In this document: in pieces, positions 52,335 to 56,715 of the stretch
Position numbering within the stretch: the stretch's first letter is position 1
Layout of the letters: every line of letters begins with the position of its first letter
Source: Chitinophaga niabensis
GTDB lineage: Bacteria > Bacteroidota > Bacteroidia > Chitinophagales > Chitinophagaceae
Assembly: GCA_017849435.1 (NCBI GenBank)
Contig: JAFIGY010000005.1
Location: forward strand, 124,001-188,000
DNA: 64,000 bases
Reading direction: 5' to 3'
Notes under the pieces: model-generated
Told to the model about the DNA's origin: nothing
Database searches by the model: none
Seen by the model: the letters and a program-made list of their open reading frames with translations, nothing else
Program-made: the position numbers and the translations under genes

Positions 52335-52478
52335 TGTGTGTATATTATTGGGTGATGAGCGATACGTTTTCAACTGCACGCTCCCCGCAGTTCTCCAATC
52401 CCTCCAAATCCTCCACCAATAACAGTTCTGAGATTTTATTCTTAAAATGTTTGCAAAATCATTATTTCCCATTTACAT

Positions 52479-52501
52479 TTGTCTACAAATCCTATAGACT
52501 A
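52479..52501. promoter_or_regulatory. 23-bp near-palindrome, copy A, upstream of the TonB receptor
   Basis: Half-sites TTGTCTACA and TATAGACTA flank AATCC. It lies 24 bases before the ATG at 52526. It matches copy B (55644-55666) at 19 of 23 positions. Probable operator of an unidentified regulator. Confidence 0.55.
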
Positions 52502-52525
52502 ATAGTATTTATCAACTAAATCAAC

Positions 52526-55390
52526 ATGAAACGTTCTATTTATAGTCTTACTGCTACCTCCCTGCTATTCCTGTTGTTATTCCCTGCCGTCATTTTTGCA
52601 CAGGAAAGCAACATTGTTCAGATATCCGGAAAAGTAAAAGATCAGCGCACCGGGGAAAGCCTTCCCGGCGTAAATATCCAGATCAAGGGAACCATTGCCG
52701 GCACTACCACGGATAATAACGGCGCCTTTGTATTGAAAACACGGCTCAAATTTCCATTTACACTGATGTTCTCCAGCCTGGGGTTTCAGTCGCAGGAGTT
52801 TGAGGTAACCGGCTCCGGCTCCAAACTGGATATTGCGCTGGCCACACAAACACTACTTGGAAAAGAAGTGGTGGTAACCGCTTCCCGAGTGGAAGAGGCC
52901 GCCCTTCGTTCTCCTGTAGCCATCGAAAAGCTGGATATCCGTACGATCAGGGAATCCCCCGCCCCCAGCTTCTATGATGCGCTGGAGAATGTAAAAGGCG
53001 TACAGATGACCACTTCCAGTCTCACCTTCAAAGTCCCCAACACCAGGGGTTTCAACATCCCCAACAATTTCCGCTTCATGCAACTGGTGGATGGGGTGGA
53101 CATGCAGGCGGCTACGCTCGGCGTACCGCTGGGCAATGCGATCGGTCCCACCGAACTGGATATCGCCAGCGTGGAAATCACTCCCGGCGCCGCTTCCGCA
53201 CTTTACGGCATGAACGCGATCAATGGTATGGCCAACCTCCAGACCAAAAGCGCTTTCCTCTACCAGGGCCTCAGCATCTACCAGAAAATAGGAGTGAACC
53301 ATGTAGATGGTATCGACTACGATCCGGCTGTATTAACGGAAACGGCTATACGTTATGCAACGTCTTTTCATGATAAATTCGCATTCAAGATAAATGCCAG
53401 CTACCTGCGCGGTACAGACTGGCGGGCCAGCACGGCCACAGATCAGAACCCGGCTGCCAACAGCCGCTTCCCGGCATTGAACGGCGCCGGGAATAATCCC
53501 GCCTACGATGCCTGGAACAAGTATGGCGACGAAAACAATAACAACGTATCCGTTGGCGTGATGCTGAATGGTAAGAACGAAACCTTCAACGTGCGCCGCA
53601 CCGGTTACTGGGAGAAAGATCTCGTCAATCCCGTGGTAAAGAATATCAAGGCGGATCTGGGCTTATATTGGCGGATAACACCCAAAGCAGAACTTTCTTA
53701 TACTTACCGTCGCGGCCAGATGGACGGCCTCTTTCAGCGTGGTAACAAGATACAGCTGGATGGCGTAGTGGTACAGAATCACAAACTGGAACTGAAAGGC
53801 ACGGATTACTTTATCCGCGGATATGTAATGCTGGAAAGCACCGGCAATTCCTACAACCTGAAACCGCTGGCAGATAACCTGGACCTGACGAACAAATCCA
53901 ACAATGCCTGGCGGGATGCCTTCAAGGCCAAACTGCAATCGGAGATCAACACAGGCACGGAACTGGCGGAAGCCATGCGCAGGGCGCGCGCGGAAGCGGA
54001 TAAAGGCCGTGTGCAACCCGGCACACCGGAGTTTGAAACATTGAAAAATACGATCACAGGCATCAACAACTGGGACCATGCCAGTATAGTAGCCGGCGCA
54101 CCCGCCACAGGCGGCGCCTGGCTGGATCAACACAGCAGGGTATATCACGTGGAAGGGCAATGGGATCTGTCGCAAAGAATAGGTCTCTTTAACCTGCTCA
54201 TAGGCGCGGATGGCCGTGTATACGAAGTGATCCCGGACGGTAACAATTTCGTGGATTTCACGAAACCTCTGGAGAAACGCACAGAACCTGGCGGCAACAA
54301 CGTGTACTACAGGAAATATGGTGGGTTTGCGCAGGCCAGTAAAACATTCTTTGACGAGAAACTCAAACTGGTAGGTTCTATCCGTGTGGACTATAACCCG
54401 GAGTTCGACCCCAGAGTCAATCCCCGTATCGCTGTTGTGTACACCCTGTCGCAAAAGCACAACTTCCGCGCATCCTGGCAGAATGGTTTCCGCTTCCCTG
54501 CATTGTTTGAAGCGCTTTCTTTCGTGAACAACGGAAATGTAAGAAGGGTCGGCGGTCTGGCTTACATCAATGAGGGACTGGGCTATCTTGATAATTCCTA
54601 CACGCTCGCTTCCGTGAATACTTTCAATAATGCCGTGAATAAAGATGTTGCGGACGGACTTACCGTGAACGATGCCGCCCTGAAGAACAAGGCCCTGCTG
54701 GAGATCACCAACCTCGCCCCTACCCGCCCTGAACGCATCAATTCCTTTGAAGCAGGCTACCGAAGCGTATTACTCGGCCATAAAGTAGTGGTTGATGCCG
54801 ATGCTTACTACAACCGCTATGATGGCTTCCTTGGTCAGGTGGAAGTAGCTGTGCCTGTAAGCGGGAAAGTAGGTACAGACCCCTCTGTGCTGGATATGCT
54901 GGCCGCCAATCGTACCAAACAAACCCGCTATCGTGTATACACCAATGCGAAAAATAAATATGATAACTATGGCGCATCGCTCGGCCTGACCTATAATTTC
55001 TATAAAAAATGGACCATTGCAGGTAATGTGAATTACAACAAACTGATTGAAAACAAACAGAAAGATGTTTTCGCTACCGGCTTTAACACCCCCAACTGGG
55101 TATCCAATCTCTCTCTCGGGAACCGCGAGCTGGTCAAGAACTTCGGCTTCAATATAGTGTGGAGATGGCAGAACGCCTTCTACTGGGAAAGCCCGCTGGC
55201 AAACGGAGATGTAGCGGCCTACAACACTGTAGATGCACAGGTGAACTATCGCGTCCCGAAGATCAGAACCACCATTAAAGTGGGTGGTTCCAATCTGCTG
55301 AACCATCGGTATATCCAATACGCAGCCGGACCTACCATAGGAGGACTATACTACGCCTCCTTCACCATAGACGGCCTGCTGACGAAATGA
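52526..55390 (+). CDS. TonB-dependent receptor with carboxypeptidase-regulatory-like domain
   Basis: 954-aa outer-membrane active transporter. Signal peptide (LLFLLLFPAVIFAQ). Regulatory-like beta domain about 33-115 (ISGKVKDQRTGESLPGVNIQIKGT, NNGAFVLKTRLKF). Plug about 118-225 (VVVTASRVEEAALRSPVAIEKLD, VPNTRGFNIPNNFRF, ASVEITPGAASALYGMNAING). The barrel ends in GGLYYASFTIDGLLTK, with a C-terminal strand rather than the classical terminal Phe. There is no SusD-like gene beside it, so it is probably not a SusC-type polysaccharide importer. It shares an upstream palindrome with the following TauE/SafE gene. Substrate unknown. Confidence 0.92.
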   Translation: MKRSIYSLTATSLLFLLLFPAVIFAQESNIVQISGKVKDQRTGESLPGVNIQIKGTIAGTTTDNNGAFVLKTRLKFPFTLMFSSLGFQSQEFEVTGSGSKLDIALATQTLLGKEVVVTASRVEEAALRSPVAIEKLDIRTIRESPAPSFYDALENVKGVQMTTSSLTFKVPNTRGFNIPNNFRFMQLVDGVDMQAATLGVPLGNAIGPTELDIASVEITPGAASALYGMNAINGMANLQTKSAFLYQGLSIYQKIGVNHVDGIDYDPAVLTETAIRYATSFHDKFAFKINASYLRGTDWRASTATDQNPAANSRFPALNGAGNNPAYDAWNKYGDENNNNVSVGVMLNGKNETFNVRRTGYWEKDLVNPVVKNIKADLGLYWRITPKAELSYTYRRGQMDGLFQRGNKIQLDGVVVQNHKLELKGTDYFIRGYVMLESTGNSYNLKPLADNLDLTNKSNNAWRDAFKAKLQSEINTGTELAEAMRRARAEADKGRVQPGTPEFETLKNTITGINNWDHASIVAGAPATGGAWLDQHSRVYHVEGQWDLSQRIGLFNLLIGADGRVYEVIPDGNNFVDFTKPLEKRTEPGGNNVYYRKYGGFAQASKTFFDEKLKLVGSIRVDYNPEFDPRVNPRIAVVYTLSQKHNFRASWQNGFRFPALFEALSFVNNGNVRRVGGLAYINEGLGYLDNSYTLASVNTFNNAVNKDVADGLTVNDAALKNKALLEITNLAPTRPERINSFEAGYRSVLLGHKVVVDADAYYNRYDGFLGQVEVAVPVSGKVGTDPSVLDMLAANRTKQTRYRVYTNAKNKYDNYGASLGLTYNFYKKWTIAGNVNYNKLIENKQKDVFATGFNTPNWVSNLSLGNRELVKNFGFNIVWRWQNAFYWESPLANGDVAAYNTVDAQVNYRVPKIRTTIKVGGSNLLNHRYIQYAAGPTIGGLYYASFTIDGLLTK

Positions 55391-55430
55391 TCTTCCTGAA
55401 GACCCGGATCAAAATTCAACCCTGCTACCT

Positions 55431-55464
55431 GATGGAGGCTCACCCTGGCCTCCATCTTTTTTTC
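55431..55464 (+). terminator. Terminator after the second TonB receptor
   Basis: GATGGAGGC / GCCTCCATC stem with an 8-base loop, followed by TTTTTTTC. It separates the receptor and TauE/SafE transcripts. Confidence 0.85.
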
Positions 55465-55643
55465 AAAACCCGGTTCCCGAAGTTTTTTAGCCCCTGCCAC
55501 TTTCCCGGAGCCACTTTCCAGCTGCCTGCCGCGTTAACACCGCATCAGTCCCACTACCGGTAACGCCCCCTTTTTTAGATCAGTACGAAATTTTAGCCTC
55601 TCCGGTTAAAATATTTGGATATACCGGAGATTAGACCTACTTT

Positions 55644-55666
55644 TAGTCCACAATTCCTGTAGACTA
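55644..55666. promoter_or_regulatory. 23-bp near-palindrome, copy B, upstream of TauE/SafE
   Basis: Half-sites TAGTCCACA and TGTAGACTA flank ATTCC; arms complementary at 8 of 9 positions. It lies 17 bases before the ATG at 55684. A further TAGAC half-site-like element sits at 55632-55636. Confidence 0.6.
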
Positions 55667-55683
55667 TATTACTCTTATAATTT

Positions 55684-56652
55684 ATGTCGCATAATGAGGT
55701 GATCGATAAAGTTGAGCAACGCGTAGCTACCGTTGAAACACAGAATGTGCTCATTGATCTTGTGAATGAGGACAACAAACGGCAGTACTGGATATGGGCG
55801 TTGATTGGGATATCTGTCGCAGCCCTGGCAGGTGGCCTTTGGTTCACATATAACTACGGCATCTCGCATGACGCCCAAACACGCATTGCCCATTTCGTAC
55901 AAATTACTTTCACGGAACGGCTGCTTTTCTTTGTAGGCGTAGGTCTGGTAGCGCAAATGATCGATGGTGCGCTGGGAATGGCTTATGGTGCCAGTTCCTC
56001 CTCCCTGCTACTGGGACTCGGCGTATCCCCTGCCATGACGAGCACCAGCGTACACGTAGCAGAAGTGTTCACCACCGGCGCCTCCGGTATCGCGCACTTC
56101 AAGCTCGGTAACGTGAACAAAAAACTCTTCCTGAACCTCCTCATCCCCGGGATGATCGGGGCAGTCATCGGCGCCTATCTCCTGTCTGACAGAATAGACG
56201 GGGCTGTGATCAAACCCTTCATGAGCGCATATCTCATGATACTCGGCATACTCATCCTCCGTAAAGCATTTCAAACGAACAAACCCAAGAGCAAAACACG
56301 CAGACTGGGTCCCCTGGCCTTCTTCGGCGGGTTCATGGACGCTATCGGCGGCGGCGGATGGGGGCCTATTGTAACCTCCACGCTCCTTAGCAAAGGCCGT
56401 ACTGTGAGCTATACCATTGGCTCTGTGAATGCGGCGGAGTTCTTCATCTCGCTTTCCAGTGCCGGCACTTTTCTGCTGTTCAACGGTATTGACAGCTGGC
56501 AGGTGATCATCGGCCTGATCATTGGCGGGGTGATCGCATCGCCCTTTGCTGCAGTGCTGGTCAGGAAACTGAAACGGAAGCCGCTGATGATCATGGTAGG
56601 CATTCTCGTGATCCTGCTCAGTATCCGCACCATCCTCATGGCGATCCTCTAA
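55684..56652 (+). CDS. TauE/SafE (TSUP) family anion exporter
   Basis: 322 aa. Family members move sulfite, sulfoacetate, sulfolactate or related organic anions across the inner membrane. A cytosolic N-terminal part (1-33) and an extra helix (YWIWALIGISVAALAGGLWF) precede the duplicated TSUP core: FFVGVGLVAQMIDGALGMAYGASSSSLLLGLGVSPAMTSTSVHVAEV, then LAFFGGFMDAIGGGGWGPIVTSTLLSKG (both signature stretches seen in pieces). The promoter region carries the same palindrome as the preceding receptor gene. Sulfur-compound transport is inferred from the family only. Confidence 0.88.
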   Translation: MSHNEVIDKVEQRVATVETQNVLIDLVNEDNKRQYWIWALIGISVAALAGGLWFTYNYGISHDAQTRIAHFVQITFTERLLFFVGVGLVAQMIDGALGMAYGASSSSLLLGLGVSPAMTSTSVHVAEVFTTGASGIAHFKLGNVNKKLFLNLLIPGMIGAVIGAYLLSDRIDGAVIKPFMSAYLMILGILILRKAFQTNKPKSKTRRLGPLAFFGGFMDAIGGGGWGPIVTSTLLSKGRTVSYTIGSVNAAEFFISLSSAGTFLLFNGIDSWQVIIGLIIGGVIASPFAAVLVRKLKRKPLMIMVGILVILLSIRTILMAIL

Positions 56653-56687: not shown

Positions 56688-56715
56688 AAGCGCACGTTTT
56701 GGATGACGTGCGCTT
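56688..56715. terminator. Bidirectional terminator between TauE/SafE and fumC
   Basis: AAGCGCACGT / ACGTGCGCTT stem with an 8-base loop, preceded by an A-run and followed by a T-rich tract. Confidence 0.8.

Follow-up and report, generated by a model that had tools for sequence, protein, structure and literature searches.

CymR is an Rrf2-family regulator of sulfur metabolism in Bacillus and Staphylococcus, and in Bacillus its repression is relieved by sulfur limitation by way of O-acetylserine and CysK. The same family includes the iron-sulfur (Fe-S) sensors IscR, RirA and NsrR. In Proteobacteria, the TonB receptor SftP for sulfate esters is controlled by SftR, a regulator of the LysR family, and in mycobacteria attenuators in the form of short leader open reading frames (ORFs) with cysteine codons lie upstream of sulfur genes. 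No Rrf2 sulfur regulon of Bacteroidota came to light in the titles and abstract openings of open-licence, Rrf2-centred literature, a search that did not extend to other regulator families; papers matched on TonB receptors with sulfur starvation or TauE, or on the TAnnTTTG promoter box with operators, held nothing on such a system by title among the matches listed. Here we describe two 23-bp inverted repeats in a 64-kb stretch of the Chitinophaga niabensis genome (the window) that lie upstream of genes for a TonB-dependent receptor and a TauE/SafE transporter. Together with conserved copies elsewhere, they are probably operators of a sulfur-supply regulon, whose regulator would most likely be an Rrf2 protein encoded near cysH-cysD-cysN. 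The two sites and the features around them are:

52479..52501, plus strand: candidate operator 1, TTGTCTACAAATCCTATAGACTA, supported by pattern search, arm complementarity and cross-genome conservation
52526..55390, plus strand: TonB-dependent receptor with a CarboxypepD_reg-like N-terminal domain (Pfam PF13715, PF07715, PF00593)
55431..55456, plus strand: terminator-like hairpin followed by TTTTTTT, between the receptor and TauE genes
55644..55666, plus strand: candidate operator 2, TAGTCCACAATTCCTGTAGACTA, supported by pattern search, arm complementarity and conservation before TauE in congeners
55684..56652, plus strand: TauE/SafE (TSUP) transporter of 322 amino acids (Pfam PF01925, 122.3 bits)
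56688..56715, plus strand: terminator-like hairpin after the TauE gene, from the hairpin scan

The two sites are identical at 19 of 23 positions, and in each the arms flanking a 5-base centre are self-complementary, at 7/9 positions in operator 1 and 8/9 in operator 2. They end 24 bp before the receptor start codon (ATG at 52526) and 17 bp before that of TauE (ATG at 55684). There are 117 same-strand pairs of 23-mers in the window with at least 19 matching positions (a count that includes overlapping offsets), and only in the operator pair do both members have arms complementary at 7/9 or better. A joint pattern searched with up to three mismatches recovers these two sites and no others in the window, with a mean of 0.00 matches in 100 dinucleotide shuffles. 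The hairpin and T-run scan found 9 sites in the window against 5.9 expected in shuffles. The receptor contains the plug (PF07715) and β-barrel (PF00593) domains above their cut-offs, which identifies it as a TonB-dependent receptor; it scores 85.7 bits against the SusC/RagA model TIGR04056 (cut-off 368.25), and the gene next to it is TauE, with no SusD. The TauE protein is a clear member of its family (cut-off 32.6 bits). The initial annotation of this DNA had already given the positions and identity of the two sites, their inverted-repeat form, their distance of 17-24 bases from start codons, the intervening terminator and the nature of both genes, all of which our analysis reproduces.

Within the genus, the pattern occurs at up to three mismatches in all 79 congeneric genomes (76/76 of those of good quality), with 1-8 matches in each, as against one match each in 10/79 for a reversed control pattern. 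In the best 30 congeneric TauE loci from the 79 genomes with a match (many lower-ranked ones being only 41-47% identical), a site precedes TauE by 13-35 bp with no more than one mismatch in 29/30 and no more than three in 30/30; equal-length stretches from inside the TauE gene contain none at three mismatches (0/30). Several relatives (including loci L110, L112, L113 and L114) share the window's arrangement of two sites, at a spacing of 3.0-3.6 kb, and in L109 the TauE site is present with no receptor gene between lspA and TauE.

Five exact half-site matches are found in the source genome, two of them in the window. The remaining three lie 23 bp before metY (O-acetylhomoserine sulfhydrylase; TIGR01326, 665.8 bits), 11 bp before the gene for a fatty-acid-hydroxylase-like membrane protein (L054:4743-5966, contig C20), and 115 bp before an extracytoplasmic function (ECF) sigma factor gene that is followed by SusC-like and SusD-like genes. 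A site with one mismatch stands 25 bp before an amino-acid permease gene (contig C18), sites with two mismatches precede metH (by 230 bp) and the gene for an AhpC/TSA-like protein, and one with three mismatches lies 33 bp before a peroxiredoxin gene (C2:216351). Two further matches with two mismatches, at C8:94407 and C5:403062, were assigned neither to the regulon nor to chance, and a third, at C13:305846 (L039), lies inside a long coding frame and was dismissed as a chance match. Given that matches with three mismatches amount to noise, weak sites were counted only where relatives agree. For metH and metY the idea of riboswitch control was rejected, their stretches giving no Rfam match at the gathering threshold. 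On contig C18 a cobalamin riboswitch is present downstream of the operator-bearing permease gene (L103:4358-4574).

The sulfate-assimilation genes carry weaker versions of the site that relatives share. The cysH-cysD-cysN operon is preceded by TAGTCCATAGTTTTTATAGGATT in the source genome and by TAGTCTATCTTTTTTATAGGWTT at the same place in four relatives. Among 30 Rrf2 loci of the genus cysH is visible in 28; a site with at most one mismatch to a relaxed pattern is present in 21 of the 28 and missing from the other seven. Upstream of the sulfite reductase operon, TACTCTAC-N7-ATAGGRAA, which is two mismatches away from the relaxed pattern, occurs at about 200 bp inside a strongly conserved block in 5/5 genomes. 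The marked genes make up a CymR-like set: metY with an exact site, cysHDN and sulfite reductase with degenerate sites in 5/5 genomes, metN and cysH in other genera, and metH with two mismatches. The initial annotation had proposed to look for the site in orthologous promoters and for further copies at sulfur genes, and both searches uphold it, the former through the 79 congeners and the TauE promoters, the latter through the exact site at metY and the weaker, shared ones at cysHDN and sulfite reductase.

Bacteroidetes housekeeping promoters have the consensus TTTG followed, at a spacing of about 20 bases, by TAnnTTTG. Both window promoters conform to it, with the following elements, read from the sequence:

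52450..52453, plus strand: TTTG, -33-like element of the receptor promoter, by the Bacteroidetes consensus
52474..52481, plus strand: TACATTTG, -7 box of the receptor promoter, a perfect TAnnTTTG
55614..55617, plus strand: TTTG, -33-like element of the TauE promoter
55638..55645, plus strand: TACTTTTA, -7-like box of the TauE promoter, matching at 5/6 fixed positions

Each pair is separated by a 20-base spacer; the final three bases of the receptor box are the first three of operator 1, and the TauE box shares the first two bases of operator 2. The initial annotation, in denying both promoters a TAnnTTTG box, is therefore mistaken, the receptor box being perfect and that of TauE one position short. 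The arrangement recurs elsewhere. We compared 132 distinct oriented sites that have a gene starting no more than 320 bp downstream (many of them orthologous and hence non-independent); 44 begin with TTG, and 41 of these 44 have a perfect TAnnTTTG at exactly -5. In the 88 TAG-type sites the perfect box at -5 occurs in none, and TAnnTTT at -5 or -6 in 16; in a control stretch farther upstream the box is present in 0/132. In the congeneric TauE loci TAnnTTT is accompanied by TTTG 18-22 bases upstream in 23/30, seven failing this rule. The T/A variation at motif position 2 is explained by this fusion of a regulatory operator to the phylum's own promoter box. As the operator overlaps both the -7 box and the presumed transcription start, the arrangement favours repression; of the repressor or activator that had been envisaged at these sites, it is the repressor that fits.

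Three proteins of the source genome score above the Rrf2 cut-off, and one of them is encoded on contig C15 (46159-46623, minus strand) near cysH-cysD-cysN. It belongs firmly to the family (PF02082, 124.6 bits against a cut-off of 30; TIGR00738, 113.3 against 73.3). Its best subfamily match is the NCBIfam CymR equivalog NF047409, at 74.3 bits against a cut-off of 195, and it scores 72.6 bits against the IscR equivalog TIGR02010, with a cut-off of 207.55. In the Protein Data Bank (PDB), its first matches are 4cic and 3lwf, with the CymR structures 3t8r and 2y75 from Staphylococcus and Bacillus third and fourth. Judged by the genes marked, the protein would work like CymR; by the family model it is not CymR. 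Its gene lies upstream of cysH-cysD-cysN in all five genomes examined, each with the weaker cysH site, and it is present in 78/79 congeneric genomes at E<=1e-40. Across the family, the exact motif is found in 37/66 genomes with this Rrf2 protein versus 1/19 without it (p=5e-5), and the association persists when Chitinophaga is left out (31/60 versus 1/19, p=0.0003); the reversed pattern is not associated with Rrf2 across the order (p=0.83). An order-wide association (298 genomes, p=1.4e-7) was set aside, and adds nothing because its signal comes from the family alone.

Furthermore, Rrf2-type genes recur beside the marked genes in distant genera: L122 has one near receptor and TauE, and L125, L127, L128 and L132 have one near TauE, which makes five of the 27 TauE loci inspected, among 80. 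In L202 an Rrf2 gene and a peroxiredoxin gene diverge from a stretch that contains the operator, which ends 1 bp before the Rrf2 gene (L202:4382-4863); this likely reflects autoregulation of Rrf2 and a redox link, and in L192 sites occur near an Rrf2 paralogue. A C-x8-C-x2-C-x5-C pattern is conserved in all 11 aligned sulfur-linked Rrf2 proteins (the last gap being one residue shorter in L202), and is absent from the other two Rrf2 proteins of the source genome.

Across the order, the exact motif occurs in 54/298 genomes against 24/298 for the reversed control, and within the family in 38/85 against 11/85. From among the sites listed, of which only a part was used, we hand-chose 40 motif loci in 25 genomes of other family genera and set against them 40 stretches drawn at random from the same contigs (two of which overlap motif-locus ends, L300 with L200 and L322 with L222). 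The gene classes compared were assimilation, methionine and Rrf2, the TonB receptor and TauE classes being left out as they had been found through the motif itself. Some of the reference sequences came from motif loci, namely L206 (sulfite reductase and siroheme), L192 (DUF2490) and L190 (PhyH), each of which therefore matches itself. Genes of the three compared classes are present in 14/40 motif loci versus 1/40 random stretches (p=0.0003), the single control match (L298) coming from a contig that itself carries two motif sites. In L203, L206, L218 and L220 the motif is situated between a siroheme-synthase/TauE fusion with sulfite reductase and a homologue of the window receptor (57-70% identity); it stands before metN in L224 and at the start of cysH-cysD-cysN in L198. 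In this last locus the operator overlaps the annotated cysH start (L198:2930-2986), so that the true start is probably farther downstream. In Dyadobacter, a Cytophagales genus outside the order, TauE is preceded in 6/6 genomes by a variant of the motif, TAATCTAY-N7-RTAGAKTA, with no match of its reversed control in any of the six. The variant was derived from these TauE promoters, and only its other matches are independent, namely those before a peroxiredoxin gene (L352) and an AhpC/TSA-like gene (33% identity, L350), in a single genome each.

The fusion of TauE to the siroheme-synthase NAD-binding domain beside sulfite reductase in relatives (L206) argues for a role of TauE in assimilation and leaves the term exporter unsettled. 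The initial annotation had called it a sulfite/organosulfonate exporter; TauE/SafE membership stands, and the export role, taken from the family name only, was too specific. An assimilatory role, perhaps in import, appears as likely as one in export.

Building on the observed motif, its conservation and placement, the genes that it marks and its co-occurrence with the Rrf2 protein in the family, we consider it likely that these are operator sites for a sulfur regulon that is conserved in the family, a variant of the CymR type for which the Rrf2 protein is a strong candidate repressor. As with CymR, an Rrf2 protein whose best subfamily score is that of CymR is tied to cysteine and methionine supply genes and to palindromic promoter sites. 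Unlike CymR, the Chitinophaga protein falls far under the equivalog cut-off and has a four-cysteine C-terminal patch, its putative operator TAGTCTAC-N7-GTAGACTA is fused to the Bacteroidetes -7 box, and the marked genes include TonB and SusC-like receptors. The use of a TonB receptor in sulfur scavenging would be shared with SftP/SftR, from which the system differs in that SftR is of the LysR family, and to which it is likened by its genes and not by its operators. We propose that an Rrf2 dimer binds the palindrome. Since this extends from within the -7 box across the presumed transcription start, the bound protein would block RNA polymerase when cysteine or reduced sulfur suffices. Under sulfur limitation the protein would be released, the signal perhaps being cysteine or a precursor of it, or a cluster held by the four cysteines. 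The TonB receptor and TauE would then be expressed together with MetY, the enzymes of sulfate and sulfite reduction, further uptake proteins and perhaps MetH, the receptor presumably taking up a sulfur source across the outer membrane and TauE moving a sulfur oxyanion or sulfonate, possibly inward, across the inner membrane. The initial annotation had predicted two transcription units under one regulator, and also a sulfur-compound regulon extending to outer-membrane uptake; our findings support both predictions. With a candidate operator, a candidate repressor and a list of marked genes, sulfur regulation in these bacteria becomes immediately testable, and the operator offers a handle on the sulfur sources dealt with by TonB receptors, DUF2490 proteins and other uncharacterised genes.

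Several observations weigh against this proposal. In the source genome the pattern at three mismatches has 72 matches, as opposed to 242 for the reversed control. The cysH and sulfite reductase sites are degenerate, and the relaxed pattern behind the count of 21/28 was defined after the first five cysH sites had been seen. In the source genome about 1.1 kb, containing an ORF on the opposite strand, separates the Rrf2 gene from cysH; draft genome G072 has the motif and no such Rrf2 protein at E<=1e-40; and the exact motif is missing from 29/66 Rrf2-positive genomes of the family. In the rest of the order the exact motif is in no excess over its control (16/213 versus 13/213) and is not associated with Rrf2 (7/81 versus 9/132 genomes, p=0.61), which leaves two readings beyond the family, a changed motif or a failing link to Rrf2. 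Of the 40 motif loci from other genera, 26 contain none of the listed sulfur genes within the sequence retrieved; in nine of these the site precedes a SusC-like receptor, and sulfatases are not enriched (1/40 versus 1/40). Genome and locus counts throughout take no account of relatedness.

The alternatives differ chiefly in what would bind the sites. The regulon may be real and the Rrf2 protein an IscR- or RirA-like sensor whose four cysteines hold an Fe-S cluster, with an Fe-S or redox signal and the sulfur genes responding as part of cluster supply. This we regard as possible, though rather unlikely. The protein resembles IscR, RirA and NsrR in its family and in having several cysteines in its C-terminal half; the conserved four-cysteine pattern, confined to the sulfur-linked Rrf2 proteins in the source genome, the sites at peroxiredoxin-like genes (L202, L352 and, with three mismatches, C2:216351) and an IscR score close to that for CymR all speak for it. 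Its cysteine spacing, however, differs from that of IscR, the equivalog cut-offs of these models are missed, the recognised targets are genes of sulfate reduction, methionine and uptake, and no isc or suf gene was recognised among the marked genes, albeit without a family-level search for them. We think it improbable that another, unlinked transcription factor binds the sites and that the Rrf2 gene merely neighbours cysHDN. In its favour, 10 motif-positive genomes of the order have no such Rrf2 protein at E<=1e-20; but nine of the 10 fall outside the family, and there the pattern does not rise above its control, and the co-occurrence within the family, the sites 1 bp before and near Rrf2 genes in L202 and L192, and the Rrf2-type genes near TauE or receptor in distant genera all favour the Rrf2 protein.

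That the repeats are RNA hairpins of a 5' leader and not DNA operators would fit palindromes ending 24 and 17 bp before start codons. The TTG-type repeats, however, start at a constant offset within the -7 box, so that their first part would be untranscribed, and the centre bases vary between genes while both half-sites are kept; we hold this to be very unlikely. A chance likeness of two AT-rich palindromes has next to no probability. Single palindromes of 7/9 or better at this spacing are indeed common, with 125 positions in the window, but the absence of the joint pattern from the shuffles, its presence in 79/79 congeners and at 29/30 TauE promoters, and its excess in the family (38/85 versus 11/85) refute it. 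The preferred reading thus stays that of operators bound by the cysHDN-associated Rrf2 protein.

Some of the marked promoters might have a second layer of control. Before sulfite reductase, an ORF of 21-25 codons starts 0-1 nt after the 23-base operator in 5/5 Chitinophaga genomes, including the source, and contains two or three cysteine codons that always include Cys-Cys; next comes a hairpin that ends in a T-rich tail, the tail being weaker in G003 and G004. That of the source genome is:

L362:940-1005, contig C2: leader ORF before sulfite reductase, 21 codons with Cys-x-Cys-Cys, with counterparts in L363-L366

For the receptor we kept 30 distinct leaders whose best operator has at most two mismatches, others being dropped before counting. 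Of these, 23 are at least 60 nt long, and among the 23 an ATG-started ORF with cysteine occurs in 20, CGATGTTG in 19, and Arg-Cys near the end of the peptide in 18, compared with at most 1/23 over 200 rounds of shuffling. The ORFs are of 8-29 codons (L022, L057, L014, L030, L114, L199, L133 and others), and the first halves of the peptides diverge while the Arg-Cys end is kept, a pattern uncorrected for common descent. The seven short leaders, including that of the window (24 nt), contain no cysteine ORF, nor do those of the close relatives L006, L008 and L013. A general screen for short cysteine ORFs (score of at least 4) found them at 10/24 sulfite reductase genes of the Chitinophaga type (five genomes being counted twice), 0/6 of the other type, 6/41 cysH, 2/20 and 4/14 of two receptor types and 2/3 metN, and at 19/232 random genes. 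The screen being unspecific, only the conserved leaders are claimed. The leaders had no convincing match in NCBIfam or Rfam, the few listed being weak and below cut-off, and a hairpin over the cysteine codons, strong in only some of 19 receptor leaders, is not claimed.

The sulfite reductase leader looks like a cysteine-responsive leader or attenuator. It resembles the mycobacterial attenuators in having short ORFs with clustered cysteine codons before sulfite reductase and, in relatives, before the receptor; it differs from them in phylum, in the combination of leader ORF and operator, and in lying outside the window. We tentatively suggest, at somewhat less than even confidence, that Chitinophaga and relatives have a two-layer sulfur switch, in which a promoter-embedded Rrf2 operator is joined in some promoters by a cysteine-sensing leader ORF. 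Its cysteine cluster or Arg-Cys(-Cys) end would couple translation to the expression of sulfite reductase and the receptor, and the receptor of the window would have the first layer only.

A few other gene families recur beside the operator. DUF2490 proteins, confirmed by Pfam in L192:3902-4678 and L122:6222-6977, are encoded in 7/40 motif loci from other genera (including the reference L192, and also L194, L199, L207, L218, L220 and L222) versus 0/40 random stretches. This uncharacterised family may be a part of sulfur uptake; the abstract openings of open-licence papers on DUF2490 contained nothing on sulfur. A link of the SusC-associated sites to sulfatases was considered and rejected, sulfatase-like genes being found downstream in L329, L338 and L340, and also in L208, and not in most. 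The motif loci without either sulfur genes or SusC-like receptors precede a PhyH-type dioxygenase, a fatty-acid-hydroxylase-like gene or genes of no known function. The fatty-acid-hydroxylase-like protein recurs after the operator in L054, L065, L068, L070, L197, L211, L215 and L219, its gene being 8-11 bp downstream in four Chitinophaga loci. PhyH-type dioxygenases are encoded near the operator in L190, L201, L208, L211, L221 and L059, in several cases followed by a short-chain-dehydrogenase-like gene, and occur in 5/40 motif loci (including the reference L190) versus 0/40 random stretches.

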